Below are positions 8,907-34,666 of a DNA stretch of 44,407 nt, piece after piece. This stretch comes from Oceanobacter sp. Lineage in GTDB: Bacteria; Pseudomonadota; Gammaproteobacteria; Pseudomonadales; Oceanobacteraceae. A program made the position numbers and the translations under genes. Position 1 is the stretch's first letter. Each line of letters starts with the position of its first letter. The stretch lies in NCBI GenBank assembly GCA_002733645.1, contig NVWL01000022.1, positions 1 to 44,407 on the forward strand. Reading direction: 5' to 3'. The notes under the pieces were generated by a model. It had not been told where the DNA came from. It did not search any database and saw nothing but the letters and a program-made list of their open reading frames with translations.

Positions 8907-9531
8907 TAGCGTCCATTTGCCTTAACTTAGTTTGTCTTAATTAGTGAGTGCTCACACGAGAAACTCAAAATTGAGCTGCCCGCACGGGAGTATCGTCGAG
9001 AGGTGACATTAAGAGCAATCGAGATTACTCCAGCCAAACAAATTCTGACAATTTTGTTGGCGGATGAGCATATTCGACCTAGGGAGTAAATTCAGCCTAA
9101 TCTTTTAGATGAATACCAAAAATCTTCCTCTCTACCCACATCATACTGGCCATTATTAACCGATGATAAGTTCAGCAAGATCAAGGGTGCTCAAGTAAAT
9201 CCGCTCTAAAAAGTGGCCTAAGCGCATCCTTAGCTTGGCTCAAATAGACCTAATAATTACCTTTCCCCACGCATTGCAGCGTCTCCTTTAGATACACACC
9301 TGTCTATTTAATCCGTTGACGATAACGATGAATGCACGATAGGATGGGAAAATATGGCCCATAAAGCTACATAAAATTTAAATAAAGCTTTCAATATTAT
9401 GCAATTAAACTGGCTCAATTCGTACATTTTGAAACAAACACATTACGAATCTCACACATAGGCTAGGCGAGAATTGAGCTAACTTAAATTACAACCATTG
9501 GCCTTTATTGAAAGCTAATTCTGAGGTTAAC
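8907..9531. other. 625-base gene-free region with 5' leader structure
   Basis: No convincing gene is seen on either strand. It must carry the promoters of marC (leftward) and of the exported-protein operon (rightward). Near its right end, GCTCAATTC (9413-9421) can pair with GAATTGAGC (9471-9479), and ATTCGTA (9418-9424) can pair with TACGAAT (9444-9450). The two helices overlap at ATTC and so are mutually exclusive. The remainder is AT-rich and featureless to my reading. Confidence 0.4.
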
Positions 9532-10695
9532 GTGCGATACAAACTGCTCCCAGTTATTACAGCAGGCTTATTAAGTTATGTCACATTGTGTGTACATAGC
9601 CTTGAGGCCATTAGTGACCGCGAAATGGCTGAAGTATCAGGCCAAGCATTTATCACTATTGATGACAGCTCTTATAATTCTGGCTCAGGCGACTGGGCCG
9701 GTAACTATGAGTTCACTAAAGTAAATCTTGGACTCAAAGCCGAGACACTGGTCAATATTGCAGAAGTTAAGCTGGGTAAATTCGATCGTACTGCCTATGA
9801 AGATGGCACTGTCCCTATGACCGATGAAAATCGGAATATTGTTTACGAGAACGGCCAACCTGCGGTCTACGATTCAGACCTTCACCTCAACAACTTTGCT
9901 CTTGGCCGTGTGGATAACTACATGGACGGTGCACTCGCTGAATTTGTTCCTTTTGTTGTCAGCAACCCATACCTAGAGCTTGCCTACAAAATTGAAGGCA
10001 GTGAACGCCGTGTGGCAGGTTTCCGTCTGGGTTTTGAAAATGCCCAAGGTGATTTATCCGCCGATATTATTTCTTACACAGGCTTCTTAGAGGGTGAAGT
10101 ACGAGGCAGTGCTAGGACCGCTTATGACAAAACCTACCCTAACGGGTGTGGCTTCCTCGACGTCAACTGCTATGCACTGGCAGCAGCAACAGACACTGAA
10201 ATCTACTCAAACATTGAGCCTCTCGATGGTAACACCGGTAATGGCGCACCCAATCTAGGCGTTCAATACCTGAAACGAGCCTCATGGTTTGGTGTCCGTA
10301 ACGGGAACAACTTCCAGTCTGACGAGTCGGGGCTTATTGCTGCGTTAATTCCCGCACTGACCAGTTCTGACGACTGTATAATTCTTGGAAATGTAGATTC
10401 ATGTTTCCCATCAACGATTTATCAGTCTATTTATATCGGTGATAAAGATACTGATTTTGAAACGGGTTCAGCCTCAGGCCTGTTTGTGTCTATACAAACA
10501 GAATCCGTACCATGGGAAGACTTATCTGGCGTACCAGGGTCAGACCGTGTCCTGACTGAGCGTGGTGCTTTTTTGAATATTGCACGTTACCAAAGCGGTA
10601 ACGAGACTAAATTCCCTCTCTATTTAGACCTAGATGAAGCTGTTTACGGTACTCCGCGCGTTGCCACTTGTGTTGGCCGAATTAAGGGATGCTAA
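9532..10695 (+). CDS. Exported protein of unknown function (first of a pair)
   Basis: About 387 residues from the GTG at 9532, which has GAGG 5 bases upstream; the TTG at 9508 lacks a ribosome site. A signal peptide covers about the first 28 residues (MRYKLLPVITAGLLSYVTLC). The mature N-terminus LEAISDREMAEVSGQAFITID resembles the short start motif of a family of large acidic exported proteins in marine gammaproteobacteria (DUF6160-like, low certainty). The rest is acidic, beta-rich, rich in Gly, Asp and Asn, with scattered cysteines (CGFLDVNC, CIILGNVDSC) that could form disulfides. The stop is 2 bases before the next gene's start. Function is unknown; surface or outer-membrane attachment is an inference from composition only. 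Confidence 0.7.
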   Translation: MRYKLLPVITAGLLSYVTLCVHSLEAISDREMAEVSGQAFITIDDSSYNSGSGDWAGNYEFTKVNLGLKAETLVNIAEVKLGKFDRTAYEDGTVPMTDENRNIVYENGQPAVYDSDLHLNNFALGRVDNYMDGALAEFVPFVVSNPYLELAYKIEGSERRVAGFRLGFENAQGDLSADIISYTGFLEGEVRGSARTAYDKTYPNGCGFLDVNCYALAAATDTEIYSNIEPLDGNTGNGAPNLGVQYLKRASWFGVRNGNNFQSDESGLIAALIPALTSSDDCIILGNVDSCFPSTIYQSIYIGDKDTDFETGSASGLFVSIQTESVPWEDLSGVPGSDRVLTERGAFLNIARYQSGNETKFPLYLDLDEAVYGTPRVATCVGRIKGC

Positions 10696-10697
10696 TC

Positions 10698-11741
10698 ATG
10701 AGAATAATAGATTTTACAGGCATCACAGCATTACTCGTTTTTAGCGCTATTTCATACGCTGATTTAGCCCGTATGGATGACAAGCAGCTTGGCGACTCTA
10801 CAGCGGCTGGTCTTGGATTTGCACTCGATGACTTTATGTTAAACAGCGACAGCGCTGTTTTAAAAGTCACAGGGATTAATGACTCTACCGGCACAGAAAT
10901 CGAGGTTGACTGGTCTGAGCTATACATAATGGGTGAAGGCAGTGAGAGCGGAACAAACCCAACAACGGTCGATATTGGCAGTTATTTACACCCTTGGACA
11001 ATCAATACTGTCCGAGGCGGTGCCGATTGGGATGGCGACCCGAGCACACACCACTCTGGTGAATATGCTGCAATTGGCGATGACATTGCTCTCATTGAAA
11101 TTAATATGGAGCGCTACACTTCGGCCGCGCAAAATACTAAAAATTATGTCGATACCTGTTTGCTATCGAGTGATCCTTCTTGCGCATCCATGGCGGCCAT
11201 TCGTCGCGGCGGTATAGACATAGGTTCAAAATTTGAATTTGTTTTGCCCAATGGCTCTGATTTCCTCGATATAGATATTCGTGGTGCCTACATGGATGGC
11301 ACCTCCATGCGTCTTTGGTCTCGAGATAATGTTGACGGCGATAGCGTGTTGTATGCTGACCTTGATATTCTCTTTTACGCCAAAGAGATTGATATAGGCG
11401 TGTGTGACTCGGGCTGTAATCCAGCGACGTCATCATTAAACATCGATAATTTTTATTTAGATATTAACTTTGGTTATGGCGAGATTCAGCCATTTATCAT
11501 TGATGTAACATCTGATGGTCATTTTGAGTTTGAATTGGCTAAGCCAGACCCTGGACCGCAAGGGGTCAATCCAAATGACTCTGATGCCATGATTGCCTTT
11601 TACGATGACTTCTACGCTAATACTCCTAAAAGCAACGTTTATATAGGTAATATCCAAGTAGGAAACAATACTGCTGGAGAGGCCATTTTTCGCGATATGA
11701 GTATCCAGTATCTGAAAGTGACGAGCCAAGATCTGAATTAG
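10698..11741 (+). CDS. Exported protein of unknown function (second of a pair)
   Basis: About 347 residues. I chose the ATG at 10698, 9 bases after AAGGG and 2 bases after the previous stop; the ATG at 10689 sits on top of that Shine-Dalgarno. A signal peptide is visible (MRIIDFTGITALLVFSAISYA). The mature start LARMDDKQLGDSTAAGLGFALDDF echoes the first protein's LEAISDREMAEVSGQAFITID, so the two are probably distant paralogues. It is Asp-rich, predicted beta, with two short cysteine loops (CLLSSDPSC, CDSGC). It is translated together with its partner, and a hairpin follows the stop. No named function can be given. Confidence 0.68.
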   Translation: MRIIDFTGITALLVFSAISYADLARMDDKQLGDSTAAGLGFALDDFMLNSDSAVLKVTGINDSTGTEIEVDWSELYIMGEGSESGTNPTTVDIGSYLHPWTINTVRGGADWDGDPSTHHSGEYAAIGDDIALIEINMERYTSAAQNTKNYVDTCLLSSDPSCASMAAIRRGGIDIGSKFEFVLPNGSDFLDIDIRGAYMDGTSMRLWSRDNVDGDSVLYADLDILFYAKEIDIGVCDSGCNPATSSLNIDNFYLDINFGYGEIQPFIIDVTSDGHFEFELAKPDPGPQGVNPNDSDAMIAFYDDFYANTPKSNVYIGNIQVGNNTAGEAIFRDMSIQYLKVTSQDLN

Positions 11742-20968: not shown

Positions 20969-21889
20969 TTATATCGTCGACAAATACCCTAAACTCACAG
21001 CGGCAGCCGCGGTTCTATTCTCAACACTCAGCTTACGAAACACTTGCTCTAAATGTTTATTCACCGTACGTGGGCTCATTGACAAGATTTGCCCTATTTC
21101 TTGGTTGGTTTTTCCTCGCGACAACCACAACAAGACTTCTGCTTCCCTTTCGGTTAACAAAAATTGCTGGCGCAGCGCATGTCTTAATGACAGTTCATCA
21201 TCATCCACTAAGCGTAATAAAAATTCGTCCGGGGCTGGTCGCCCTAAAAAACGTACCTGCATGAGTCGTTGACCTAGACTCAAGCGTGTTTGCGCATGGC
21301 GTTCTGGGCTCCGTGCCAACCAATCATTTAATTGCGTTGGTAATGCCATTTGCAATTGCTCTTCACTGCTGCCCGCTTGAAGCAATAAAGAGCGCGCGCA
21401 TTCGGTCGTCCAAAGCAGTACACCATTAATATTGCACGCAAACGCAGGTTGCCCCATTTCATTCAATGCACTGCGAGCACTTTGTGCTTTTCGAGCATTA
21501 TTCAAATGCACATGTACTCGCGCCAACAACTCATATAAGTTCACGGGTTTGGTTAAGTAATCCACCCCACCACACTCTAGACCACGAACCACGTCATCAC
21601 TCTCGCTTAGCCCTGTCATGAAAATCACTGGGATATCTTCAAGTTCTGGATCTTTCTTTAATGCTTTACACGTTTCAAATCCGTCTAAATTCGGCATGAT
21701 GGCATCCAGTAGAATTAAATCTGGTGTCATTCGTGAAGCGATGTTTAGTGCTTGCTGACCATCCATCGCCACCAGTACCGTATAGCCCGCCCCTGCCAAG
21801 GCTTCATTCAACATACTTAGACTTTCAGCCGTATCGTCTGCAATTAAAATCACACCACCGCTGGATGGTTTGTGCTCAGGATTGTTCAT
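20969..21889 (-). CDS. Response regulator, REC plus LuxR-type HTH
   Basis: A 306-residue regulator. The receiver domain is at about 12-130 with acidic pair Asp18/Asp19, phospho-acceptor Asp62 (LILLDAIMP) and Lys114. A PAS-like middle segment (about 145-220) precedes a LuxR/GerE helix-turn-helix (245-300: LLTEREAEVLLWLSRGKTNQEIG, MSPRTVNKHLEQVFRKL). The gene overlaps the end of the hybrid kinase gene by 14 bases, so the two are co-translated and almost certainly cognate. The likely target is the divergent amide-transport and formamidase operon, judged from position. The extra middle domain is unusual among NarL/FixJ-type regulators and may sense or dimerise. Confidence 0.92.
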   Translation of the reverse strand: MNNPEHKPSSGGVILIADDTAESLSMLNEALAGAGYTVLVAMDGQQALNIASRMTPDLILLDAIMPNLDGFETCKALKKDPELEDIPVIFMTGLSESDDVVRGLECGGVDYLTKPVNLYELLARVHVHLNNARKAQSARSALNEMGQPAFACNINGVLLWTTECARSLLLQAGSSEEQLQMALPTQLNDWLARSPERHAQTRLSLGQRLMQVRFLGRPAPDEFLLRLVDDDELSLRHALRQQFLLTEREAEVLLWLSRGKTNQEIGQILSMSPRTVNKHLEQVFRKLSVENRTAAAAVSLGYLSTI

Positions 21890-24800
21890 AACTGAGTACC
21901 TTTTTACTGATGGCTATTATGTGATTGAACTGATAATTTTTGAGGTGCTGATTTAATAAACTAACCATTGACGAATCTGCTCCACGCTGTGTCATACGCT
22001 GTAAGACGTGCTCAACCCCGGCAACATACCCAAGTTCTGACAAGGAAATCATCTCTCGCGCTTCACTCGCTTTAATGTCGGGATTTTTTTGTCCATGACT
22101 ATGCTCAACAGAAAAACCAGAAACGTGATTAACGGCATATAGCCAAGTTAACCCCAATGCTTTTCCAAGCTTGTCGAGTAAGGCAGTATCACGAATTGGC
22201 TTAATTAAATAATCATCATTTAAGCGCTCTTCTGCTTCTTTTATTCCTCCTTGAGTCGCCGCCGATTGTCGGTCTTCTGCATCCGCTGACACCATAATTA
22301 CTGGGGCAATAATGCCCTGATTACGCAAGCGCTTTAATAGTTCCCAGCCGGTCATCTCTGGCATGGAAATATCGAGTAAAAAAGCATCCACCTGTGTATC
22401 TGCTAATGATTCTAAACAGTCAAACCCATCTGTCGCTTCTAACACAATAAAGCCTAACGGCACCAGAATTTCACTCACTAACCCTCGATGGGAGGGGTTA
22501 TCATCAACCACCATCACAGTACAGGGGTCACCTTGATAAGCGACCGGCTGGCGCACTGGAGCTGGCACATACTGCTTTCCAGTCACGCTAGATAACATTA
22601 AAGCTAATCGAAATTGGCTACCTTTCTGAGGTTGGCTTTTGAGCGTAATGTCGCCGCCCATGATGTCCGCCAGTAGTTGACTGATGGTTAGACCAAGCCC
22701 AGTACCGGGCATTTGCGGAATCCCGGGTTTACGAATACGTTCAAACGGCTGGAAAATTCGAGTTTTTTCATTCTCAGTTATACCAGGTCCAGTATCATCA
22801 ATATAAAATTCAGCCACTTGGCTACGATATCGAACCGACAATGACACGCTGCCGTCACTCGTGAACTTCACCGCGTTAGAAAGTAGGTTGATTAAAATTT
22901 GGCGCAAGTGCTTTTCATCCGTCGCAACCACTTCAGGCATGTATGAGCAAGGATGATAGTGAAATTGAATGCCTTTGCTTTCTGCTTGCAGCCGGAACAT
23001 TTCCACTAACTCTTGCAACAAAACGCTTATCAACACTTGGTCACGTCGAATCTCTAAGCGCCCGGCTTCGATGCGAGATATATCCAGTAGGCCTTCAATT
23101 AAGTCCGCGAGGTGATCACCACTGCGGCGAACTAATCCCACTTTATTCAACTGAGTAGCACTTAAGTCTTTATCTTTTTCCAGCAGTTGCGCATACCCCA
23201 AAATCGAATTTAATGGGCTTCTAAGTTCATGGCTGATGCCTCCAAGATAGCGACTTTTGGCTTGGTTAGCGGCCTCTGCTAATTCCTTGGCTTGCTGTAA
23301 TTCGTTATCAGTTTTTTCATGAGCGGCAATTTCTTGAATTAGCAAATCAGTCTGACGAGTCGCTTCATCAAGCGCAATTTGGCGGCTTTCATTGGCGAGT
23401 ACAAACAGCCAAATTAACACTCCCACAATGATTAATAACAGTACGTACACTTGAACAAGAGTAGCCCCTAAAAGAACACGGCCTGCATCTGCCTCTGGGA
23501 CTTGTAAATACACCAGCCAAAATACAACCCCGACTAAGGCTCCCATCATGGCGAGCAGCCCAGAAAACTGCATAAATCTAGGGTTCATTTGCTCGGTTAA
23601 CCACGAGGGCAATACCGCTTCAAGTAGGGTTTGCATTTGCTCACTAAGGCGCGATTTTTCTTTGCACTTATCATGGCAGCGGGATTCAAGGGTGCAACAC
23701 AAAGAGCAAATATGACCGCCATACGCCGGGCAAGAAGCAATGTCTTCCCGATCAAAGGTGTTTTCACACACCACACATGTCAGTTCAGCGCTGGCTGGAA
23801 CAAGTGGAATTACCTCTCGAGCAAGGTAATATTTTCCGCGTGTAATTAAGGCAATGATAGGCGCTGCCACAAACGCGGTCATTAATGCAATATACGGCGA
23901 CAGCGCTTTAAATAGTTCTCCCCACATGCCGACATAAGCCAAAATTCCAATCAGTGAGGCCAGCAGCATAGAGCCAAAACCTACCGGGTTTATATCGTAT
24001 AAATAAGCGCGTTTAAATTCGATATGACGTGGGCTTAACCCTAACGGTTTATTCACGACCAAGTCGGCAACAAGTGCTCCAACCCATGCCACGGCCACGT
24101 TCGAATAAATACCCAATATATGTTCTAACGATTCATAGACACCTAAGGCCATCAGCAGCAAAGCAATACCGACATTGAAAAATAACCACACCACCCTACC
24201 CGGGTGGCTATGGGTTAAGCGGGAGAAGAAGTTCGACCACGCAATAGAGCCGGCATAAGCATTCGTGACGTTAATTTTGGTTTGGCACAGCACCACAAAA
24301 AGCCCCGTGAGGGCCAACACAGCCAGCGGCGAGTCGGTTAAATACCCAAAAGCAACAATGTACATTTGTGTCGGATCGCTGGCTTCCATAGCACTCAAGC
24401 CATGATTTAACGCCAAGACAGCTAAAAATGAACCTGCTAGAATTTTTAAAGCACCAACAATAATCCACCCTGGCCCTGCCCCGAGCAATGCCAGCCACCA
24501 GCGTAATTTTTGGTTCTTTTTTGGCTCCGGTAAAAATCGCAAAAAATCGACCTGCTCGCCAATTTGTGCAATTAATGAGAAAACAACGGCAGAGGCCGCA
24601 CCAAAAAAGATCAAGTTGAAACTTTCTGCCTCACCCATGCCACCTTCTAGGTCAGTCGTCGGTACGCCCTCAGTCGGGTAGTAAGCAAGCCACTCCTGTA
24701 ACGACGACCACTCATGCCAGAGTATAAAAATAAAGGGGAGTACCTGAAGGAGTAACCAAAATGGCTGAGTCCACAATTGAAATCGACTAATCGCAGTGAT

Positions 24801-25295
24801 TCCATGTGTCACTAGAGGGATAACCATGAGTGCGCTAATGAGATAGCCAAGCCACACCGGGATATCAAACAGGATCTTCATCGCTGATGCCATAATCGCG
24901 GCTTCTAAGGCGAAAAAGATGAACGTGAAGGACGCATAAATAAGTGAAGTTATGGTCGAGCCGATATAACCAAACCCTGCCCCACGGCTGAGTAGATCAA
25001 TGTCTAAACCGTACCGAGCGGCGTAATAGCTGATTGGTATGGCCGTCAGGAAAATAATCGCTGACACCACCATCACAGCAGCTATTGCAGCATCAAAACC
25101 ATACATGAGCGTGATGGCTGCACCAATCGCTTCCAACGCTAAAAAGGAAATTGCCCCCAGCGCGGTATTGGACACTTTCGCCGCTGACCAACGTCTTGCG
25201 CTTTTTGCGGTAAAGCGCAGCGCAAAATCTTCCAGCGTTTGGTTTGCCACCCACCGATTGTAACTTCGGCGACTGGTCATTTCAGGTTCGGACAT
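21876..25295 (-). CDS. NCS1 permease-like hybrid histidine kinase
   Basis: An 1139-residue fusion. Residues about 25-490 form an NCS1-type purine/cytosine/hydantoin permease with about 12 membrane segments (opening RWSAAKVSNTALGA; later INVTNAYAGSIAWSNFFSRL). A cytosolic eight-cysteine module spans 507-544 (CVVC, C522, CSLCC, C540, C544). Two more membrane helices lie at about 575-597 and 607-634, then a coiled coil. HisKA has ISHELRSP (His689), and HATPase has NLLSNAVKF, DTGPG (834-838) and GTGLGL (864-869). A receiver domain follows (DD931-932, Asp975, Lys1032), with a C-terminal tail to 1139. The design recalls CbrA, a kinase with a solute-symporter half. It is paired with the overlapping regulator gene and divergent from the amide operon. 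Whether the permease still transports is unknown. Confidence 0.93.
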   Translation of the reverse strand: MSEPEMTSRRSYNRWVANQTLEDFALRFTAKSARRWSAAKVSNTALGAISFLALEAIGAAITLMYGFDAAIAAVMVVSAIIFLTAIPISYYAARYGLDIDLLSRGAGFGYIGSTITSLIYASFTFIFFALEAAIMASAMKILFDIPVWLGYLISALMVIPLVTHGITAISRFQLWTQPFWLLLQVLPFIFILWHEWSSLQEWLAYYPTEGVPTTDLEGGMGEAESFNLIFFGAASAVVFSLIAQIGEQVDFLRFLPEPKKNQKLRWWLALLGAGPGWIIVGALKILAGSFLAVLALNHGLSAMEASDPTQMYIVAFGYLTDSPLAVLALTGLFVVLCQTKINVTNAYAGSIAWSNFFSRLTHSHPGRVVWLFFNVGIALLLMALGVYESLEHILGIYSNVAVAWVGALVADLVVNKPLGLSPRHIEFKRAYLYDINPVGFGSMLLASLIGILAYVGMWGELFKALSPYIALMTAFVAAPIIALITRGKYYLAREVIPLVPASAELTCVVCENTFDREDIASCPAYGGHICSLCCTLESRCHDKCKEKSRLSEQMQTLLEAVLPSWLTEQMNPRFMQFSGLLAMMGALVGVVFWLVYLQVPEADAGRVLLGATLVQVYVLLLIIVGVLIWLFVLANESRQIALDEATRQTDLLIQEIAAHEKTDNELQQAKELAEAANQAKSRYLGGISHELRSPLNSILGYAQLLEKDKDLSATQLNKVGLVRRSGDHLADLIEGLLDISRIEAGRLEIRRDQVLISVLLQELVEMFRLQAESKGIQFHYHPCSYMPEVVATDEKHLRQILINLLSNAVKFTSDGSVSLSVRYRSQVAEFYIDDTGPGITENEKTRIFQPFERIRKPGIPQMPGTGLGLTISQLLADIMGGDITLKSQPQKGSQFRLALMLSSVTGKQYVPAPVRQPVAYQGDPCTVMVVDDNPSHRGLVSEILVPLGFIVLEATDGFDCLESLADTQVDAFLLDISMPEMTGWELLKRLRNQGIIAPVIMVSADAEDRQSAATQGGIKEAEERLNDDYLIKPIRDTALLDKLGKALGLTWLYAVNHVSGFSVEHSHGQKNPDIKASEAREMISLSELGYVAGVEHVLQRMTQRGADSSMVSLLNQHLKNYQFNHIIAISKKVLSYEQS

Positions 25296-25542
25296 GTTTT
25301 AACATTCCCTAAGGCCAGTACCTTGCAGGGATACTTAGCAGAATATTCATTAGGGCTTCCAGCCTGCAAGCGCAGACTGATCCATGTCCAGCATTTATAA
25401 GATCAAAAGACACTAATCACATCTCATGCCAAATCATATGCGTCAAATGACGTAGTCAGGTATGGCATACGACGAATGTTCGTCAGTCTTCCAATGACGC
25501 AATCTAGCCAAGGTAAGAATTAACCACTCAAGAGGCTCGATT
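25296..25542. promoter_or_regulatory. Divergent control region: hybrid kinase / amide operon
   Basis: Several palindromes cluster here. GACGAATGTTCGTC (25471-25484) is near-perfect with 6-bp arms and abuts GTATGGCATAC (25460-25470). GCGTCA/TGACGT lies just to the left (about 25441-25452). ATGCCA (25426-25431) can pair with TGGCAT (25463-25468). These are good candidates for the LuxR-type regulator or a nitrogen regulator. A weak sigma-54-like element GGC-N7-TTGCA is at 25313-25327, lacking the full -24 box and 216 bases from urtA. Confidence 0.5.
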
Positions 25543-26817
25543 ATGCGTTCAACTCCAACTTCAAACCGTAAGGCGGAAGGACTGCTGAGAAGCAATCGCC
25601 GCTCTTTACTCAAAGGCTTACTCGCTATTCCGGCGGCTATTGCCCTCGCACACACTAGCTTGCCTGCATATGCAGCAGATGGCGTGAATACTACCGGCTT
25701 AGCGGTAACCGACGATACTGTCACCGTCGGGATTCTGCATTCCGTTACCGGCACAATGGCCATCAGTGAAACAGGCTCGGTTCAGGCAGAAAAGCTGGCT
25801 ATTGAGCAAATCAACGCCATGGGCGGTGTCTTGGGTCGTCAGATCGAATACATTCAGGAAGATGGTGCCAGTGACTGGCCAACGTTTGCGGAAAAAGCAA
25901 AAAAACTGCTCGTCAGTGACAATGTCGCCGCCATTATGGGCTGCTGGACATCAGCATCTCGTAAAGCGGTATTGCCTGTTATGGAACAATACAATGGCAT
26001 GTTGTTCTACCCAACATTTTATGAAGGCTTAGAGCAGTCTCCAAACGTTGTGTATACCGGCCAAGAAGCCACTCAGCAAATCCTCGAAGGTATTGACTGG
26101 GCCTCGAAAACCAAAGGGGCTAAATCTTTCTTTTTACTTGGTTCAGATTACATTTGGCCACGTACCTCAAACAAAATTGCGCGCAAGCACATTGAGAAGC
26201 TAGGTCTTAAAACCGTGGGCGAAGAGTACTACCCACTGGGTCACACTCAATTCAACTCTGTAATCAATAAAATCAAACTGAAAAAACCGGATGTGGTCTT
26301 TATCTCGGTAGTGGGTGGCTCCAACGTTGCTTTCTACAAACAGCTGAAAGCCGCCGGGATTGATATGGGGAAAGAAAAGCCTTTATTCCTAACCATCTCA
26401 GTAACAGAAGATGAAATCTTAGGTATTGGTGGTGAAAACATTGAAGGCATTTACGCATCAATGAAGTACTTCCAAAGCCTGCCTAACGAAAACAACCAAG
26501 CTTTTGTTAAAGCATTTAAAGAGCGCTGGGGTGATGACATTGTTATCGGTGATGTTACTCAGGCCGCTTACTTGGGCCCTTGGATCTGGAAAGCCGCCGT
26601 TGAGAAAGCAGGTTCCTTCGATATCGACAAACTGAAAGAAACCTTACCCGGTATTGAAATCACAGCCGCACCAGAAGGTTATGTGAAAGTGCATGAGAAT
26701 CATCACTTGTGGTCTAAGACACGTGTTGGTCATGCGCAGCTAGATGGTCAATACAAGGTTGTTTACGAAAGTCCTGAACTGATCGAACCTAACCCATTCC
26801 CAGCCGGTTACCAGTAA
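25543..26817 (+). CDS. urtA: Urea/short-chain amide ABC transporter, substrate-binding protein
   Basis: A periplasmic type I binding protein of 424 residues in the UrtA/FmdD/AmiC group. The signal sequence SNRRSLLKGLLAIPAAIALAHTSLPAYA has twin arginines followed by S-L-L-K, close to a Tat motif. Family blocks VGILHSVTGTMAISET, IMGCWTSASRKAVLPV and LFYPTFYEGLEQSPNVVYTG (ligand-contact region of UrtA/AmiC) are conserved. It heads a seven-gene operon with fmdAB at its end. That makes formamide or acetamide-type amides more likely than urea, although homologues bind both. A 97-base gap containing a hairpin separates it from the permease gene, which fits the need for excess binding protein. Confidence 0.92.
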   Translation: MRSTPTSNRKAEGLLRSNRRSLLKGLLAIPAAIALAHTSLPAYAADGVNTTGLAVTDDTVTVGILHSVTGTMAISETGSVQAEKLAIEQINAMGGVLGRQIEYIQEDGASDWPTFAEKAKKLLVSDNVAAIMGCWTSASRKAVLPVMEQYNGMLFYPTFYEGLEQSPNVVYTGQEATQQILEGIDWASKTKGAKSFFLLGSDYIWPRTSNKIARKHIEKLGLKTVGEEYYPLGHTQFNSVINKIKLKKPDVVFISVVGGSNVAFYKQLKAAGIDMGKEKPLFLTISVTEDEILGIGGENIEGIYASMKYFQSLPNENNQAFVKAFKERWGDDIVIGDVTQAAYLGPWIWKAAVEKAGSFDIDKLKETLPGIEITAAPEGYVKVHENHHLWSKTRVGHAQLDGQYKVVYESPELIEPNPFPAGYQ

Positions 26818-26828
26818 GACCGGACGCG

Positions 26829-26897
26829 GCTCTGGCACTCAAGGCAAATCATTAGCCAACGAGCAAATGCCAGAGCTGCAACCTCTTTTATTTTTTT
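26829..26897 (+). terminator. Intra-operon hairpin with T-rich tail (partial terminator)
   Basis: GCTCTGGCA (26829-26837) and TGCCAGAGC (26868-26876) form a perfect 9-bp stem with a 30-base loop, followed by a T-rich stretch (26884-26897). It lies between the binding protein and the permease genes. Partial termination or 3'-end protection here would raise binding-protein levels relative to the membrane subunits. Confidence 0.5.
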
Positions 26898-26913
26898 CAC
26901 TGGGAGAACAATC

Positions 26914-27843
26914 ATGTTCGCTGAATATACCGCCTCCGAGCTGACCTCTATTTTTGCAATGCAAGGGTTTGCTGGTCTCATTTTATTTTCTGTTTTCGTT
27001 CTTATGGCACTAGGCCTCGCCATTATTTTTGGCCAGATGGGCGTGATTAATATGGCCCACGGCGAATTTATGATTCTTGGTGCCTACGTTACTTATCTGG
27101 TTTCGCATTTGTTTGCGGATTACATGCCCGAAAGCCTCTATAACAGTTACTTTTTAATTGCGATGGTGCTCGCCTTCTTTGTCGCAGGGGCCTTAGGGGC
27201 TTTTGTCGAATGGGCGATGATTCGCCACCTTTATAAACGCCCTCTGGATACTTTATTAGCCACGTGGGGCTTAAGCTTAATTATGCAGCAAACCTACCGT
27301 ACCGTATTTGGTGCGCGTGAAGTGGGTGTTGTATTACCTGACTGGTTAATGGGATCAGTGCAATTAACTGACATGATTGAAATTCCGATTAACGGTATTT
27401 TTGTGATGATTTTGACCGTCGTCATTACCATCGGTGTCGCGATAATGATGCAACGCTCTCGCTTAGGTAAACAAACCCGCGCTGTTGTACAAAATCGACC
27501 GATGGCCGCCGCCGTAGGCATTAACACTGAAAAAGTCGACCGGCTCACCTTTGCTCTAGGCTGTGGTATCGCCGGTATCGCAGGATCAGCCTTCACTATG
27601 ATTGGCTCGACCGGCCCAACATCAGGCCAGCTTTATATCGTTGATACCTTCCTTGTTGTTGTATTTGGTGGTGCAGCCAGCCTACTCGGCACCGTGGCAT
27701 CCGCATTTACCATTTCTCAAGCGCAATCGACCATGGAATTTTTCTTAAGTGGCTCGATGGCAAAAGTACTTACCTTGCTCACGGTAGTTGGCATTCTAAT
27801 GCTACGTCCTGAGGGCCTCTTCACTCTGAAAATTCGTCGCTAG
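26914..27843 (+). CDS. urtB: Urea/amide ABC transporter permease (UrtB/LivH type)
   Basis: An inner-membrane subunit of 309 residues with about eight hydrophobic helices, in the LivH/UrtB family. Recognisable blocks are IIFGQMGVINMAHGEFMILGAY and the transducer-loop region RSRLGKQTRAVVQNRPMAAAVGI. The C-terminal YIVDTFLVVVFGGAASLLGT is typical of UrtB. It lacks the long N-terminal extension that many proteobacterial UrtB proteins carry (about 520 residues), so it resembles the compact FmdE form. GGGAG lies 8 bases before the ATG. It is followed 12 bases later by the second permease gene. Confidence 0.92.
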   Translation: MFAEYTASELTSIFAMQGFAGLILFSVFVLMALGLAIIFGQMGVINMAHGEFMILGAYVTYLVSHLFADYMPESLYNSYFLIAMVLAFFVAGALGAFVEWAMIRHLYKRPLDTLLATWGLSLIMQQTYRTVFGAREVGVVLPDWLMGSVQLTDMIEIPINGIFVMILTVVITIGVAIMMQRSRLGKQTRAVVQNRPMAAAVGINTEKVDRLTFALGCGIAGIAGSAFTMIGSTGPTSGQLYIVDTFLVVVFGGAASLLGTVASAFTISQAQSTMEFFLSGSMAKVLTLLTVVGILMLRPEGLFTLKIRR

Positions 27844-27855
27844 GAGGCTATTTAA

Positions 27856-29016
27856 ATGAATAATATTACTGAATTTATCGCACGTAACCGATACAGCCAT
27901 ATGATTATTTTGGCTCTATTGTTAGCAGTAGTCTTGCCACTATCAATGGATATTTTTCGACTCAACTTAGTAGGAAAATACCTTACCTACGCATTTGTTG
28001 CGTTGGGTTTAGTACTTTGCTGGGGCTATGGTGGCATCTTAAGTTTGGGCCAAGGTGTGTTTTTTGGTTTAGGTGGTTACTGCATGGCGATGTTCCTAAA
28101 ATTAGAAGCATCGTCACCTGAAAATACTCAAATTCAATCGACGCCCGGTATTCCAGACTTTATGGATTGGAACCAAATCACCGAACTGCCATGGTTTTGG
28201 GAACCTTTCCACAGCTTTGGTTTTACCTTGGTTGCCGTTCTTGTTGTACCTGCACTCTTCGCCTTTATCATTGCCGTTGCTATGTTTAAACGCCGTGTGG
28301 GTGGTGTTTACTTCGCCATTATTACTCAAGCCATCGCCGCAATTCTGACCATCTTAATTATTGGCCAGCAAGGGTATACCGGTGGTGTGAATGGTATTAC
28401 CGATTTACGGACATTAAATGGCTGGGACATTCGTACGGACAGTGCCAAATATGTACTGTATTACGTTAATGTCGTTCTGCTGTTTGCTTGTATTTTCATT
28501 GCTGGGTTTGTGGTGAAAAGTAAGCTTGGACGTTTACTGGTGGCGATGCGAGAACGTGAAGATCGTGTTCGCTTCTCGGGTTACGACGTATCCAACTTCA
28601 AGATTTTTGTCTTTTGTTTAGCTGCGATGATTTCGGCTATTGGTGGCGCCATGTTCACCTTACAAGTCGGTTTCATGTCGCCTTCCTTTGTTGGCATCGT
28701 GCCATCCATCGAAATGGTGATCTTCTGCGCTTTAGGTGGCCGCCTTTCTATTCTGGGCGCGGTGTACGGCACCTTATTAGTTAATTTCGCGAAAACCAGT
28801 TTCTCTGAATCCTTCCCTGAACTGTGGTTATTTGCCATGGGCGCCTTATTTATTGGTGTGGTTATGGCCTTCCCGAATGGCTTAGCAGGTATTTACCAAA
28901 CCTATATAGAGCCGCGTCTGATCTCTAAAAAGAAAGGCTACGAAAAAGAAGACCCAAAGAAAAAAGACGACAACCCCGCGCTCGCTAATCCTGAAGAGGA
29001 AAAGACTCATGCTTGA
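27856..29016 (+). CDS. urtC: Urea/amide ABC transporter permease (UrtC/LivM type)
   Basis: The second membrane subunit, 386 residues, LivM/UrtC family. Landmarks are GLVLCWGYGGILSLGQGVFFGLGGYCMAM, the coupling loop SKLGRLLVAMREREDRVRFSGYD and the conserved GFMSPSFVGIVPSIEMVI. The final 35 residues are a highly charged tail (SKKKGYEKEDPKKKDD onward), which should face the cytosol. The start has AGGAGG 9 bases upstream. The gene overlaps the ATPase gene by 8 bases, indicating coupled translation. It pairs with the LivH-type subunit to form the transmembrane channel. Confidence 0.93.
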   Translation: MNNITEFIARNRYSHMIILALLLAVVLPLSMDIFRLNLVGKYLTYAFVALGLVLCWGYGGILSLGQGVFFGLGGYCMAMFLKLEASSPENTQIQSTPGIPDFMDWNQITELPWFWEPFHSFGFTLVAVLVVPALFAFIIAVAMFKRRVGGVYFAIITQAIAAILTILIIGQQGYTGGVNGITDLRTLNGWDIRTDSAKYVLYYVNVVLLFACIFIAGFVVKSKLGRLLVAMREREDRVRFSGYDVSNFKIFVFCLAAMISAIGGAMFTLQVGFMSPSFVGIVPSIEMVIFCALGGRLSILGAVYGTLLVNFAKTSFSESFPELWLFAMGALFIGVVMAFPNGLAGIYQTYIEPRLISKKKGYEKEDPKKKDDNPALANPEEEKTHA

Positions 29017-29770
29017 GACGACTAAAAATATAGGCAAAGACTTCGTATTAAGTGTTGAAGGTTTGACCGTATCTTTTGATGGTTTTAAAGCGGTCAACGA
29101 TCTTTCTTTCTATGTCGAAGAAAATGAAATCCGCGTGATTATCGGGCCTAACGGTGCAGGAAAAACAACGGTTCTAGACTTGATTTGCGGTCGCACGGCA
29201 GCGACCGAAGGTTCGATTAAGTTTAAAGGCAAAGAACTCACAAAAATGAAAGAACACCAAATCGTTCATACCGGTGTCGGGCGTAAATTTCAAAACCCTT
29301 CTATCTATGAAGATTTAACGGTGTTTGAAAATTTGGAGCTGTCTTTCCCGCGTGGCCACAGTGTGTTTGGCGCCCTTTTCTTCAAGCGAGACAAAGAAGT
29401 CATCGAAAAAATCAGTGAAATTGCCGCCATGATTTTCCTTGGCGACAAGTTAGGTATGTCCGCTGATCTCCTATCTCACGGGCAAAAACAGTGGTTAGAA
29501 ATTGGCATGTTGCTGATTCAAGACCCAGAACTTCTGATGCTTGATGAACCCGTCGCTGGTATGTCGGTGTCAGAGCGTAAACAAACCGCCGACCTGCTGC
29601 ATCGCATCACCAAAGATCGCTCCGTATTGGTGATTGAGCACGATATGCAATTTGTGGCTGAAATCGCTGACCGCGTGACGGTCTTACATCAAGGCAAGGT
29701 ACTTTCAGAGGGGTCAATGGAGCGTGTGCAATCTGACCCGAAAGTTATTGAAGTTTACCTTGGTCACTAA
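29009..29770 (+). CDS. urtD: Urea/amide ABC transporter ATPase (UrtD/LivG type)
   Basis: A cytosolic ATPase of 253 residues. Walker A is GPNGAGKTT (about 47-55), the Q-loop region is GRKFQNPSIYEDLTV, the signature is LSHGQKQWLEI (C in the canonical LSGGQ replaced by SHGQ, normal for UrtD), Walker B is LLMLDEPVAGM, and the switch His lies in VIEHDMQFV. The C-terminus DPKVIEVYLGH is the LivG/UrtD hallmark. It should dimerise with the next gene's product. It overlaps urtC by 8 bases. Confidence 0.95.
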   Translation: MLETTKNIGKDFVLSVEGLTVSFDGFKAVNDLSFYVEENEIRVIIGPNGAGKTTVLDLICGRTAATEGSIKFKGKELTKMKEHQIVHTGVGRKFQNPSIYEDLTVFENLELSFPRGHSVFGALFFKRDKEVIEKISEIAAMIFLGDKLGMSADLLSHGQKQWLEIGMLLIQDPELLMLDEPVAGMSVSERKQTADLLHRITKDRSVLVIEHDMQFVAEIADRVTVLHQGKVLSEGSMERVQSDPKVIEVYLGH

Positions 29771-29796
29771 TTGCCAATTACACAGGTGAAAACACG

Positions 29797-30486
29797 ATGT
29801 TGCAGATATCTGATTATTCCGTTGCCTATGGCCAAAGCACCATTATTGGCGACATGAATTTAACATTAAACCCGAATGAGATCATTGCGGTACTGGGTCG
29901 TAATGGTATGGGAAAAACAACATTAATGAAGTCTCTCATCGGCATGATTCCCAGCCAAGGCGGCAGCGTTACGTTAAAAAATAAAGAGCTAACGCCGCTG
30001 AAAAGCTTTGAGCGTGTTGCCGCTGGCGTGGGTTTTGTTCCTCAAGGACGCATGATTTTTTCAACCATGACGGTCAAAGAAAATATTGAAACTGGCTTAA
30101 CCAGTACCGGAAAAAAAGTTATCCCGAGCGACTTGTATGAATTATTTCCTGTATTGGATGAAATGAAAGACCGCCGAGGTGGCAACTTATCCGGTGGTCA
30201 ACAACAGCAGCTTGCTATTGCACGAGCACTGGCGAGTGAGCCAAGTGTTCTATTACTGGATGAACCGACGGAAGGTATTCAACCAAGCATTATTAAAGAA
30301 ATGGCGAGAACACTGAAAAAAATTCGAGACAAGCGTGGATTATCCATCATGGTATCAGAGCAAGTACTGAGCTTTGCGCTGGATGTCGCCGACCGAATTT
30401 TAGTGATTGAAAAAGGAAAAATAGTATTGGATGTGCCTGTGGCAGAAGCCGATCAGGAAACTATTTCAAAATATCTTTCTGTATAA
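29797..30486 (+). CDS. urtE: Urea/amide ABC transporter ATPase (UrtE/LivF type)
   Basis: The partner ATPase, 229 residues. Walker A is GRNGMGKTT (about 34-42), as usual in UrtE and LivF. The Q-loop region is FVPQGRMIFSTMTVKENIETGL, with signature LSGGQQQQLAIARAL and Walker B LLLDEPTEGIQPSI. The GRMIF block is a UrtE feature. It starts 26 bases after urtD with AGGTGA upstream of the ATG. Together with the four preceding genes it completes a five-part importer. Confidence 0.95.
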   Translation: MLQISDYSVAYGQSTIIGDMNLTLNPNEIIAVLGRNGMGKTTLMKSLIGMIPSQGGSVTLKNKELTPLKSFERVAAGVGFVPQGRMIFSTMTVKENIETGLTSTGKKVIPSDLYELFPVLDEMKDRRGGNLSGGQQQQLAIARALASEPSVLLLDEPTEGIQPSIIKEMARTLKKIRDKRGLSIMVSEQVLSFALDVADRILVIEKGKIVLDVPVAEADQETISKYLSV

Positions 30487-30528
30487 ATTTTAAACCTGCA
30501 TAAATAACGACGATCTAGGAGAAATACA

Positions 30529-31761
30529 ATGGCTGATACCATTATTAAAATTGACCTCAGTAAATCCGCTTATGATCACGACAACGTGCACAATCGTTGG
30601 CACCCTGATATTCCCATGGTTGCCAAAGTTAAGCCCGGTGATGACTTTATTGTTGAGTGTTTTGATTGGACCGGCGGTCAGATTAAAAACGATGACGACG
30701 CATCCGACGTCCGTGATGTTGATTTGTCACAGGTGCATTTTTTATCTGGCCCTATCGCTGTTGAAGGCGCACAACCAGGCGATCTGCTTGAAGTAGATAT
30801 TCTCGATATTGGTGCCTTCACTGAACAACAATGGGGCTTTAACGGCTTTTTCTCGAAAAAGAATGGCGGCGGCTTTTTAGATAATCGTTTCCCTGAAGCA
30901 CAAAAATCAATCTGGGATTTTAATGGTATGTATACCAAATCCCGACACGTTCCCGGCGTTGAATTTGCGGGTATTTTGCACCCAGGATTGATTGGGTGTT
31001 TACCCTCAAAAGACATGCTTGATATGTGGAACAAACGTGAAACTGAGTTATTTGATACCGATCCAGATCGTGTTCCTACATTAGCATGTTTGCCTTATGC
31101 TCCGACCGCTCACATGGGTCGCATGAAAGGTGATGAGAAAGACCAAGCCGCGGCCACTGGCGCACGTACCGTGCCACCGCGAGAACATGGTGGTAACTGT
31201 GACATTAAAGATTTAACCCGTGGTGCGAAGGTGTACTTCCCGGTCTACGTTGACGAGGCTGGCTTATCAGTGGGCGATTTACACTTCAGCCAAGGGGATG
31301 GTGAAATTACCTTCTGTGGCGCCATCGAAATGGCTGGTTGGATTCATATGCGCGTGAATCTAATTAAAGACGGCATGGCTAAATATCAGATTAAAAATCC
31401 TATTTTCAAACCAAGCCCTATGGTGCCTAAGTACGACGATTACCTTATTTTTGAAGGTATTTCAGTCGATGAAGACGGTAAACAACACTTCTTAGATACC
31501 AGTATTGCCTATCGTCAGGCCTGTCATAACGCCATTAACTATATGACTCAGTTTGGCTTCAGTGAGGCACAAGGCTACGCCATTATTGGTTGTGCGCCAG
31601 TGCAGGGCCACATCAGTGGTGTCGTGGATGTACCCAACTCCTGTGCAACCTTGTGGCTACCTACGGATATCTTCGACTTCGATATCAAGCCAAATGCCGA
31701 TGGGCCAATCAAACACTTGGATGGCAGTATCGATATTCCTAAAGCGCCCGATTTAGAGTAA
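30529..31761 (+). CDS. fmdA: Formamidase (FmdA/AmdA family)
   Basis: A cytosolic formamide amidohydrolase, giving formate and ammonia; relatives also act on acetamide and other short amides. The 410 residues equal the length of Methylophilus FmdA. Strongly conserved blocks are HNRWHPDIP, ECFDWTGGQIKNDDDASDVRDVDL, FAGILHPGLIGCLPS, REHGGNCDIKDL (metal/active-site region) and VGDLHFSQGDGE. FmdA has no nitrilase-type Cys triad, so it is unrelated to AmiE/AmiF amidases. AGGAG lies 8 bases before the ATG. Its position after the transporter genes argues that the imported substrate is an amide it cleaves to supply nitrogen. Confidence 0.96.
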   Translation: MADTIIKIDLSKSAYDHDNVHNRWHPDIPMVAKVKPGDDFIVECFDWTGGQIKNDDDASDVRDVDLSQVHFLSGPIAVEGAQPGDLLEVDILDIGAFTEQQWGFNGFFSKKNGGGFLDNRFPEAQKSIWDFNGMYTKSRHVPGVEFAGILHPGLIGCLPSKDMLDMWNKRETELFDTDPDRVPTLACLPYAPTAHMGRMKGDEKDQAAATGARTVPPREHGGNCDIKDLTRGAKVYFPVYVDEAGLSVGDLHFSQGDGEITFCGAIEMAGWIHMRVNLIKDGMAKYQIKNPIFKPSPMVPKYDDYLIFEGISVDEDGKQHFLDTSIAYRQACHNAINYMTQFGFSEAQGYAIIGCAPVQGHISGVVDVPNSCATLWLPTDIFDFDIKPNADGPIKHLDGSIDIPKAPDLE

Positions 31762-31771
31762 GGAGCAGCCT

Positions 31772-32149
31772 ATGCCTTTGTACGATTATAAGTGCCCTGA
31801 GCACGGTGTTTTTCAAGAGCTAGCCGCTATGGCCGATCACGAAAAACCGAGTTTCTGCCCGCAGTGTCAAACGATGTCTTCGCGCATTGTGCTTATTCCG
31901 CCCGCCATTGCGCAAATGATTAAAGAGAAAAAGGAAGCAATGGAGCGTAATGAAAAATCACAACACGCGCCGGAGTTTATGACCAGTGGCCAATTTCATG
32001 AACGGGAGAAAGAAAAGGAAGCGCGACATCAACACGACAATCGTAATAAGTGCGGTTGTGCACCTAAAAAGCGTGTCAGTAATCTGATGTATACGGCAGA
32101 AGGAAATAAGATGTTTCCATCAATGCGACCGTGGATGATCAGTCACTGA
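31772..32149 (+). CDS. fmdB: FmdB-type zinc-ribbon protein
   Basis: A 125-residue FmdB-family protein. The N-terminal putative zinc ribbon has Cys8, His11, Cys29 and Cys32 (PLYDYKCPEHG, then FCPQC). A charged helical middle and a second Cys pair (CGCAPKK, about 94-100) follow. In Methylophilus, FmdB is proposed to regulate formamidase expression, but the family's biochemical role is unsettled. The gene starts 10 bases after fmdA with AAGGAG before the ATG and is the last gene before a strong terminator. The tail is longer than in the short ribosome-linked FmdB-like proteins. Confidence 0.9.
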   Translation: MPLYDYKCPEHGVFQELAAMADHEKPSFCPQCQTMSSRIVLIPPAIAQMIKEKKEAMERNEKSQHAPEFMTSGQFHEREKEKEARHQHDNRNKCGCAPKKRVSNLMYTAEGNKMFPSMRPWMISH

Positions 32150-32192
32150 TGTTCAGTAAAGTATTAAGTAAAGATTGAAGCAGTTCAGGCTT

Positions 32193-32239
32193 GCCTCGGT
32201 AATGTTGGTTAATCACCAACACTACCGGGGCCTTTTTTT
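32193..32239 (+). terminator. Strong intrinsic terminator of the amide operon
   Basis: GCCTCGGTAATGTTGGT (32193-32209) pairs with ACCAACACTACCGGGGC (32215-32231) around a 5-base loop, with 15 of 17 pairs matched or wobbled, followed by T7 (32233-32239). It lies 44 bases after fmdB. The opposite strand has A-rich sequence only after the stem, so it mainly serves the plus strand. Confidence 0.92.
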
Positions 32240-34116: not shown

Positions 34117-34384
34117 ATTTTATACCTGTGTGCAGACGTTGAGGGGCTTACCGTTAGGGTTAGAACTCCGCTAACCACGCTCACGTTACAACGCTGCTGA
34201 CACGGTTGAGCCCGACGTATCTATTTAAGAGGGCGCGAAGTATACAGGAAATGATGTTAGAACGCTCGTTTAAATTTCATTTAATGACGAGAACACTAAG
34301 ACACAGGACTGATCCGGTACCACTACGCAAAAGCACTGTTAGATGGTTATAATCGCGCTCCACACATTAATCAGGTCTGTAATC

Positions 34385-34666
34385 ATGTTGACTGTAAATG
34401 AATATTTCGACGGCAAAGTAAAATCCATTGCCCTACAAACTGACACTCTGCCAGCAACTATTGGCGTGATGGAGCCGGGTGATTACGAATTTGGCACAAG
34501 CCATAAAGAAGTAATGACGATTGTTTCTGGCAGCATGGATGCCCTTCTTCCTGACAAGAGCGAATGGCAGACATTCGCGAAAGGTGATTCATTTGAAATT
34601 GAAGCGAACGTGAAATTTCAGGTGCGCCTGGCAGGCCAAACCGCTTACTTCTGTACTTACGAGTAA
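34385..34666 (+). CDS. ppnP: Pyrimidine/purine nucleoside phosphorylase PpnP
   Basis: A small cupin of 93 residues that phosphorolyses several nucleosides (uridine, adenosine, inosine and others) to base and ribose-1-phosphate. The whole length matches YaiE/PpnP: NEYFDGKVKSIA, the conserved TIGVMEPGDYEFGTSHKEVMTIVSG, KGDSFEIEANVKFQVR and the YFCTYE end. The ATG at 34385 is the family start; the upstream frame extension has no counterpart in the family. It stands alone and is followed by a perfect hairpin shared with the convergent GGDEF/EAL gene. Confidence 0.95.
   Translation: MLTVNEYFDGKVKSIALQTDTLPATIGVMEPGDYEFGTSHKEVMTIVSGSMDALLPDKSEWQTFAKGDSFEIEANVKFQVRLAGQTAYFCTYE

Follow-up and report, generated by a model that had tools for sequence, protein, structure and literature searches.

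Known Transporter-Built Receptor Kinases and the Locus in Oceanobacter sp.

Receptor kinases built on transporters are known for a handful of ligands, and most of them have the SLC5 fold. The subject here is a stretch of 44,407 nucleotides from Oceanobacter sp. (contig NVWL01000022.1 of assembly GCA_002733645.1), referred to below as the window. It encodes a hybrid histidine kinase with an N-terminal half of the NCS1 transporter fold, a LuxR-type response regulator, and, in the opposite direction, the operon urtABCDE-fmdA-fmdB. With a probability of about 0.74, the kinase and the regulator constitute a transceptor-type two-component system, in which the NCS1 half detects formamide-like amides, or urea in sister lineages, and induces uptake and hydrolysis via the regulator.

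The closest described systems are CrbS/CrbR, CbrA/CbrB, and Ks-Amt5. The host of Ks-Amt5 belongs to a different phylum, and CbrB is an NtrC-type regulator, unlike the LuxR-type regulator here. CrbS/CrbR (MxtR/ErdR), whose SLC5-STAC kinase is for acetate, also combines a transporter half on a hybrid kinase with a LuxR-family regulator, has an imperfect inverted repeat 5' of its targets, and turns on the use of a small nutrient; it differs in the SLC5 instead of the NCS1 half, in its STAC and PAS linkers where the kinase of the window has a cysteine module, and in the acetate regulon (PMC5715377). CbrA, an SLC5-STAC-PAS kinase for histidine, is likewise a transporter-kinase "transceptor", but has an SLC5 half, no C-terminal receiver (REC) domain, and a regulon of carbon/nitrogen balance (PMC13022988, PMC7918813). 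Ks-Amt5 from an anammox bacterium is a nitrogen-compound transporter fused to a kinase (PMC5764959, PMC12918730), with the Amt fold and ammonium as its ligand (PMC5764959). RpuS/R is a further transporter-kinase precedent (PMC9100948). GrtK/GrtR senses external ammonia but has no Amt module and is not a transporter fusion (PMC12918730). The system of the window functions like CrbS and CbrA, yet outside the SLC5 family. The transporter-kinase principle is already known; the novelty lies in the NCS1 receptor branch and in the cysteine module.

AmiC/AmiR controls aliphatic amidase genes in response to amides; there, the ligand-binding AmiC (PDB 1pea) acts on an antiterminator and no kinase takes part (PMC13209695). 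In P. veronii, a urtABCDE-amiE-fmdAB locus lacks amiC and amiR; fmdB is named a positive regulator of formamidase, the transporter is suggested to import formamide, and growth on acetamide and formamide is shown (PMC13209695). The term "two-component" is absent from the text of that paper. In Ectopseudomonas, a second urtABCDE is next to genes for a hybrid kinase and a LuxR regulator, and the adjoining locus tags include fmdA (PMC13296017). The text of this paper does not contain the term "NCS1". The available portions of the two papers propose no sensing mechanism for the operon. Among the open-access papers listed, none deals with an NCS1-fused kinase or with a sensor for this operon.

The kinase/regulator pair is on the minus strand, divergent from urtABCDE-fmdA-fmdB on the plus strand (window 20969-32149), and its two genes overlap by 14 bases (21876-21889). 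The coordinates and domains of this two-gene signalling unit, as given in the initial annotation, were confirmed, and so were the positions of the operon genes. The composition of a hybrid two-component system is present by Pfam, with HisKA, HATPase, and REC in the kinase and REC and the GerE helix-turn-helix (HTH) in its partner. UrtA, UrtB, UrtC, UrtD, UrtE, and FmdA all score above the curated NCBIfam cut-offs. FmdA reaches 759 bits for the equivalog NF045496 (cut-off 500) and matches the solved formamidase PDB 2wkn at E 1.7e-216. FmdB has an FmdB-type zinc ribbon and an RPWMISH domain, each above its cut-off. The features are as follows (aa, amino acids).

20969-21889, minus strand: response regulator, 306 aa; REC at aa 14-125, linker of ~110 aa, LuxR/GerE HTH at aa 245-297
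21876-25295, minus strand: NCS1-fused hybrid histidine kinase, 1139 aa
22170-22517, minus strand: C-terminal REC of the kinase, aa 927-1042; phospho-acceptor D975 by homology
22596-22922, minus strand: HATPase_c, aa 792-900 (Pfam)
23061-23261, minus strand: HisKA, aa 679-745; phospho-acceptor H689 by homology
23391-23573, minus strand: two further predicted membrane helices, ~aa 575-635, leading into the signalling helix (hydropathy; AlphaFold2 model)
23658-23783, minus strand: eight-cysteine module, ~aa 505-546, CxxC..C..CxxCC..C..C
23826-25295, minus strand: sensor half of NCS1 fold, ~aa 1-490 (hhalign to PF02133 proteins; Foldseek to CodB and Mhp1)
25439-25454, no strand: operator-like 7-2-7 palindrome TGCGTCAAATGACGTA, consensus TACGTCA-AA-TGACGTA
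25543-26817, plus strand: urtA, substrate-binding protein (NCBIfam)
26914-27843, plus strand: urtB, permease of the ATP-binding cassette (ABC) transporter (NCBIfam)
27856-29016, plus strand: urtC, ABC permease (NCBIfam)
29009-29770, plus strand: urtD, ABC ATPase (NCBIfam)
29797-30486, plus strand: urtE, ABC ATPase (NCBIfam)
30529-31761, plus strand: fmdA, formamidase (NCBIfam NF045496 equivalog; PDB 2wkn)
31772-32149, plus strand: fmdB, zinc-ribbon protein with RPWMISH domain

NCS1 Identity of the Sensor Half

The N-terminal half of the kinase belongs in NCS1 by profile comparison, by fold search, and by a stand-alone homologue that matches PF02133. The initial annotation had made the same assignment, while Pfam and PDB sequence searches do not show it. 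A Pfam search of this half gave nothing relevant up to E 10 and did not reach the PF02133 cut-off, and across the whole genome of the window PF02133 had 0 matches. No SSF (SLC5) match was found in the kinase by Pfam. The PDB sequence search with the sensor half alone returned nothing relevant, and phmmer against PDB with the stand-alone homologue at locus L111 or the NCS1 protein at locus L211 returned weak, irrelevant matches only (loci are cited by L numbers).

In hhalign, a profile of 42 sensors aligned to six separately gathered PF02133 proteins with a probability of 98.7 (E 3.5e-16), and with a probability of 99.7 (E 1.4e-25) when a seventh, nearer NCS1 protein (L211) was included; these E-values are those of single comparisons. 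The alignments to NCS1 cover 402-433 columns at 17-18% identity. The stand-alone homologue of L111 is 43% identical to the sensor half and matches PF02133 at 8.6e-8, above the cut-off.

The AlphaFold2 model of aa 1-672 has a predicted template modelling score (pTM) of 0.84 and a mean predicted local distance difference test (pLDDT) of 82.8. The best Foldseek matches of the sensor model are CodB and Mhp1 (2jln), both of NCS1, with template modelling (TM) scores of 0.66-0.78 to the target and 0.47-0.50 to the longer query. For CodB 7qoa, E is 2.8e-9, with TM scores of 0.77-0.78 to the target and 0.48-0.50 to the longer query. Other LeuT-type folds, including the plant urea transporter DUR3, rank lower, and SSS-family folds also rank under CodB and Mhp1. 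The sensor half is thus like CodB and Mhp1 (PF02133) in fold and profile, but it is below Pfam detection, is fused to a kinase and a cysteine module, and probably has another ligand class. It is kept better than the whole protein; identity to the kinase of the window is 59-64% for aa 1-560 and 52-55% for the whole protein (four comparisons each).

At L211 (10950-12440, plus strand), an NCS1 permease (PF02133), 28% identical to the L111 protein, is followed by an open reading frame (ORF) that looks nitrilase-like by inspection. This permease resembles the sensor half distantly and may also transport an amide or a nitrile.

Linker and Kinase Core

The sensor half is joined to the kinase core by the eight-cysteine module and the two further helices, a linker without Pfam match; the presence of a STAC model in the Pfam copy used is unconfirmed. 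The cysteine module had been read from the single sequence, and it is borne out by the 83 dereplicated sensors of the tree described below, in which C507, C510, C522, C530, C533, C534, C540, and C544 are each at least 97% conserved. The module probably binds metal. The stand-alone copy of L108 has all eight cysteines, and that of L111 has only four, C507, C510, C530, and C533, a difference that hints at two separable metal sites.

Pfam shows neither PAS nor any other cytoplasmic sensor domain in the kinase of the window. The possibility that the tail of the kinase includes a histidine phosphotransfer (HPt) domain was rejected, as Pfam shows none and the candidate histidine of the tail is not conserved.

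Linkage with Amide and Urea Genes in Other Genomes

The phylum draw, a sample of 398 genomes not chosen by similarity, has a sensor match in 53 genomes, the window's own among them. It yielded 56 stretches, which extend ~11 kb upstream and 7 kb downstream of the match unless the contig ends sooner. One of them (L211) contains an NCS1 transporter without a sensor match, leaving 55 sensor loci. Omitted from these are the window's own locus, one already in the class draw, second fragments of counted matches, and one fragment of 94 aa. At 37 of the 55 loci fmdA is present, together with amiE at 22 of them; ureC and/or ureG are present at 12, and urease-type urtA alone at 4. The other 2 loci are without any such neighbour and are on short contigs, with stretches of 9.2 and 4.8 kb. 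Some of the genomes in the draw are related, and the 55 loci can therefore not be counted as independent.

In the class draw of 369 genomes, 18 have a sensor match, and their fetched stretches contain 19 sensor places (L108 accounts for two; two places are stand-alone copies). The neighbours are fmdA at 6 places, urease at 4, urtA only (49% identical) at 1, and none of these at 8. FmdA is found in 20 of the 369 genomes, and together with the sensor in 6. In all six, both are on one contig, at most ~10 kb apart. The co-occurrence of sensor and FmdA gives a Fisher p of 1.4e-4, with the window's own genome included.

A similarity scan of the genome collection was used for the nearer relatives. 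Among the best 80 of at least 577 relatives, 69 stretches have fmdA and/or amiE, 6 have urtA alone, all on stretches with less than 4 kb of sequence upstream of the kinase, and 1 has urease-type urtA (L065). The remaining 4 have none; L029, L066, and L067 are at contig ends, and L073 has ~4 kb of upstream sequence. A formamidase is present at all 5 plasmid loci picked among 15 listed. It is FmdA in 4 and the unrelated AmiF in 1, from Klebsiella (NF009803, 602 bits).

The recurring neighbours are formamidase, aliphatic amidase, AmiF, urease, and urt. Nothing in the annotated neighbourhoods points to hydantoin or nucleobase genes; beyond the amide and urea queries, the neighbouring ORFs were annotated only in part. 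The initial annotation had staked its proposal on linkage in other genomes, and the linkage is conserved, at loci labelled alpha-, beta-, and gammaproteobacteria. It had also pointed to a mismatch between the ligands of NCS1 and the amide operon. This is largely resolved by the neighbourhoods and the stand-alone copies described below, with the class draw giving the weaker picture.

The Klebsiella locus (L001) is on the conjugative plasmid NZ_CP094480.1 and includes the sensor, urtABCDE, and AmiF. Among 5000 plasmid records listed, at least 501 have one place spanning at least 80% of the kinase.

Stand-Alone Homologues and Other Fusions

At L108, a stand-alone homologue of the sensor half (559 aa), directly followed by fmdA and then by a short ORF and amiE, is divergent from the kinase and regulator. 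The urt queries had no match in the L108 stretch. The homologue occupies the position held elsewhere by urtABCDE. At L111, a homologue of 540 aa is located 3' of ureD-ureB-ureC-ureG and 5' of a NicO nickel permease. For the ligand class, these two loci carry the most weight, and they point to urea and short amides.

The sensor half is fused to at least four types of output: hybrid kinase, plain kinase, PAS-PAS-kinase-REC, and PAS-GGDEF-EAL. The plain-kinase fusions are at L203 (5010-8820, minus strand) and L207, and both stretches include fmdA. At L203, the next downstream ORF has REC and HATPase domains, in place of the LuxR regulator. The PAS-PAS-kinase-REC fusion is at L113, and the PAS-GGDEF-EAL fusion is at L112 (5852-9520, minus strand); the latter would tie amide/urea-type sensing to cyclic di-GMP. 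L112 and L113 are from one genome, in which no urease or urtB match was found.

Conserved Intergenic Palindrome

The palindrome at 25439-25454 lies ~88 bp 5' of urtA and 143 bp 5' of the kinase start. Palindromes of the 7-2-7 form are the type bound by NarL-type regulators. In the alignment of the intergenic regions of the window and six near relatives, there is one conserved block, around TACGTCA-AA-TGACGTA.

The search was extended to 156 of the 159 upstream regions (three were too short), 119 after dereplication, with 100 first-order Markov shuffles as the null. The degenerate form TRCG-N8-CGYA is present in 68 of 83 amide-type regions (shuffles: mean 3.5, maximum 8), in 6 of 6 urt-only regions (mean 0.44, maximum 3), and in 3 of 10 other regions (mean 0.25, maximum 2). 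After five surviving discovery relatives and one doubly counted divergent region were removed, the amide count is 62 of 77 (shuffles not repeated). The strict form TACG-N-CGTA has a spacing of 8 in 55 of the 119 regions, and any other spacing from 0 to 20 in at most 3. A variant from Bradyrhizobium is TACGCAAGATCGCGTA. The palindrome is conserved across classes far beyond chance. The initial annotation had noted palindromes between the divergent genes, and this one proved conserved; another, GACGAA-TG-TTCGTC at 25471-25484, read by eye, is not conserved in the six aligned relatives.

In the 3.88-Mb genome of the window, the degenerate pattern has one exact match, at 25439-25454. There are five one-mismatch matches elsewhere, against two for the reversed-pattern control. 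All five are within ORFs of at least 90 aa, none nitrogen-gene-like by inspection, and a wider regulon is not claimed.

Amide- and Urea-Linked Sensors

The tree was built from 159 sensor places and the window. With L003, L066, and L210 excluded because of stops or length, 157 sequences were usable, and dereplication at 80% reduced them to 83. It is a quick tree with a midpoint root only, and 22 of its 80 inner branches are unresolved. Over the labelled rows, 5 changes between amide and urea are required; the sensor has apparently switched between amide and urea clusters on several occasions. Clustering of the urea label is weak, with 8 changes against all other rows; the mean for shuffled labels is 10.4, and a number as low was seen in 6 of 500. 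Positions 238, 240, and 245 of transmembrane helix 6 vary within the urea set, whose 10 rows are too few to interpret.

Nitrogen Genes of the Oceanobacter Genome

No match to urease alpha was found in the genome of the window, in a search positive in control genomes. There are two urea carboxylase genes. One of them (C74, 56000-73000, L226) is clustered with a second urtABCDE, of the urease type, and with ORFs that are allophanate-hydrolase-like and GntR-like, both by inspection. UrtA of this cluster is 77% identical to UrtA of L121 and 38% identical to UrtA of the window. This low identity within one genome makes urea doubtful as the cargo of the window's UrtA, and urea is apparently imported by a system of its own. 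That UrtABCDE of the window simply serves urease was rejected, as there is no urease match in the genome and a separate urea carboxylase-urt cluster is present. Aliphatic amidase had no match in the genome, in a search without a positive control. With no urease match, an own urea carboxylase-urt cluster, and no amidase match, the urt copy of the window most simply serves formamide, and the operon is most simply a formamide system.

Other Features of the Window

A PpnP-type nucleoside phosphorylase (34343-34666, plus strand) is found 2.2 kb from the fmd operon, and no evidence ties the two. A HipA-like kinase (HipA_C) is encoded at 137-1402 on the minus strand. At 9508-11741 on the plus strand there are two successive ORFs of 395 and 350 aa, overlapping by 7 bases, without Pfam match. 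The Rfam scan of the window gave nothing at the gathering score. The sigma-70 promoter scan gave 1 weak match against a shuffle mean of 0.5.

Proposed Mechanism and Alternatives

In the proposed mechanism, a small carboxamide, formamide first in this genome and urea in sister lineages, would be bound in the transporter pocket of the NCS1-fold half. The resulting change of conformation would run through the eight-cysteine module and both additional membrane helices into the kinase core. Phosphate may pass from H689 to the LuxR-type regulator directly, with the kinase's own REC as a modulator; the direct route is proposed because no HPt domain was found. The regulator would then bind the palindrome at 25439-25454 and activate the divergent operon, and possibly its own genes too. 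Uptake would be followed by hydrolysis to formate and ammonia.

The initial annotation had likewise taken the NCS1 half as a receptor that controls amide uptake and hydrolysis. The linkage, the stand-alone homologues, and the palindrome support this. Among the ligands that it named, amides and urea are the ones to which the linkage and the stand-alone homologues point, and the ligand class is narrowed to them; the annotated neighbourhoods have no pointer to hydantoin or nucleobases.

Several observations weigh against this mechanism. Eight of the 19 class-draw sensor places have no fmdA, urease, or urt inside the fetched stretch. Among these, the genome of L110 has another copy that is linked, ~9.5 kb from the start of L110, and at L118 and L124 the contig ends after 1.6 and 1.2 kb upstream, but five (L112, L113, L119, L123, and L125) are unexplained, with 5 to 10 kb of upstream sequence. 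In the same draw, 14 of the 20 FmdA genomes are without such a sensor, and FmdA is thus often controlled otherwise. The degenerate palindrome is present in only 9 of 20 urea-type regions (shuffles: mean 0.75, maximum 4). No residue column cleanly separates amide-linked from urea-linked sensors among the 83 dereplicated sequences; this agrees with a single ligand class, but the sequence of a given sensor does not tell its preferred member. Finally, CbrA without its SSS half can still signal, and its signal is likely intracellular, according to a review (PMC7918813/PMC13022988). A transporter half therefore need not be the receptor.

The precedent of CbrA bears on two alternatives. The system may control the operon while the signal is general nitrogen status or ammonia, with the NCS1 half as a membrane anchor or a flux detector. 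Ammonia is the product of amide and urea hydrolysis alike, an Amt-fused ammonium-sensing kinase is known (PMC5764959), and the signal of CbrA, as noted, is thought to be intracellular. This alternative is unlikely, as stand-alone relatives of the sensor half are in the place of the transporter in an amide cluster and in a urease cluster, and as the sensor half is conserved better than the whole protein. Slightly less likely still is that the NCS1 half serves mainly as a functional transporter, with its fusion serving co-regulation and the cytoplasmic part doing the sensing. The SLC5 half of CbrA does transport histidine, and the kinase can signal without it (PMC7918813, PMC13022988), but the same NCS1 half is on at least four output types, as expected of a sensor, and the kinase of the window has no recognised cytoplasmic sensor domain. 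It is improbable that the sensor half detects a nucleobase, hydantoin, or allantoin-like ligand with the amide genes as a downstream or incidental target, since, for all that the nearest solved folds are those of CodB (cytosine) and Mhp1 (hydantoins) and amide and urea neighbours are missing at five class-draw sensors, the recurring neighbours are amide and urea genes, in ORFs searched with those queries and otherwise annotated in part.

Implications

The sensing of small amides and urea by the NCS1 half is therefore preferred here. A broader proposal, held with somewhat more belief than doubt, is that the sensor half represents an unrecognised NCS1 branch for urea and short amides in place of nucleobases or hydantoins. 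Its members would be both stand-alone transporters able to replace UrtABCDE and a plug-in receptor, placed on several outputs via the eight-cysteine module and controlling amide and urea nitrogen use.

If true, a second LeuT-fold family, NCS1, and a new linker module would be added to the transporter-built receptor kinases. The use of formamide, acetamide, and urea would have a likely dedicated regulator. The defined operator and the stand-alone relatives would make ligand, transport, and signalling separable questions. The "urea" ABC transporters that adjoin this kinase would be worth re-examining as amide importers.

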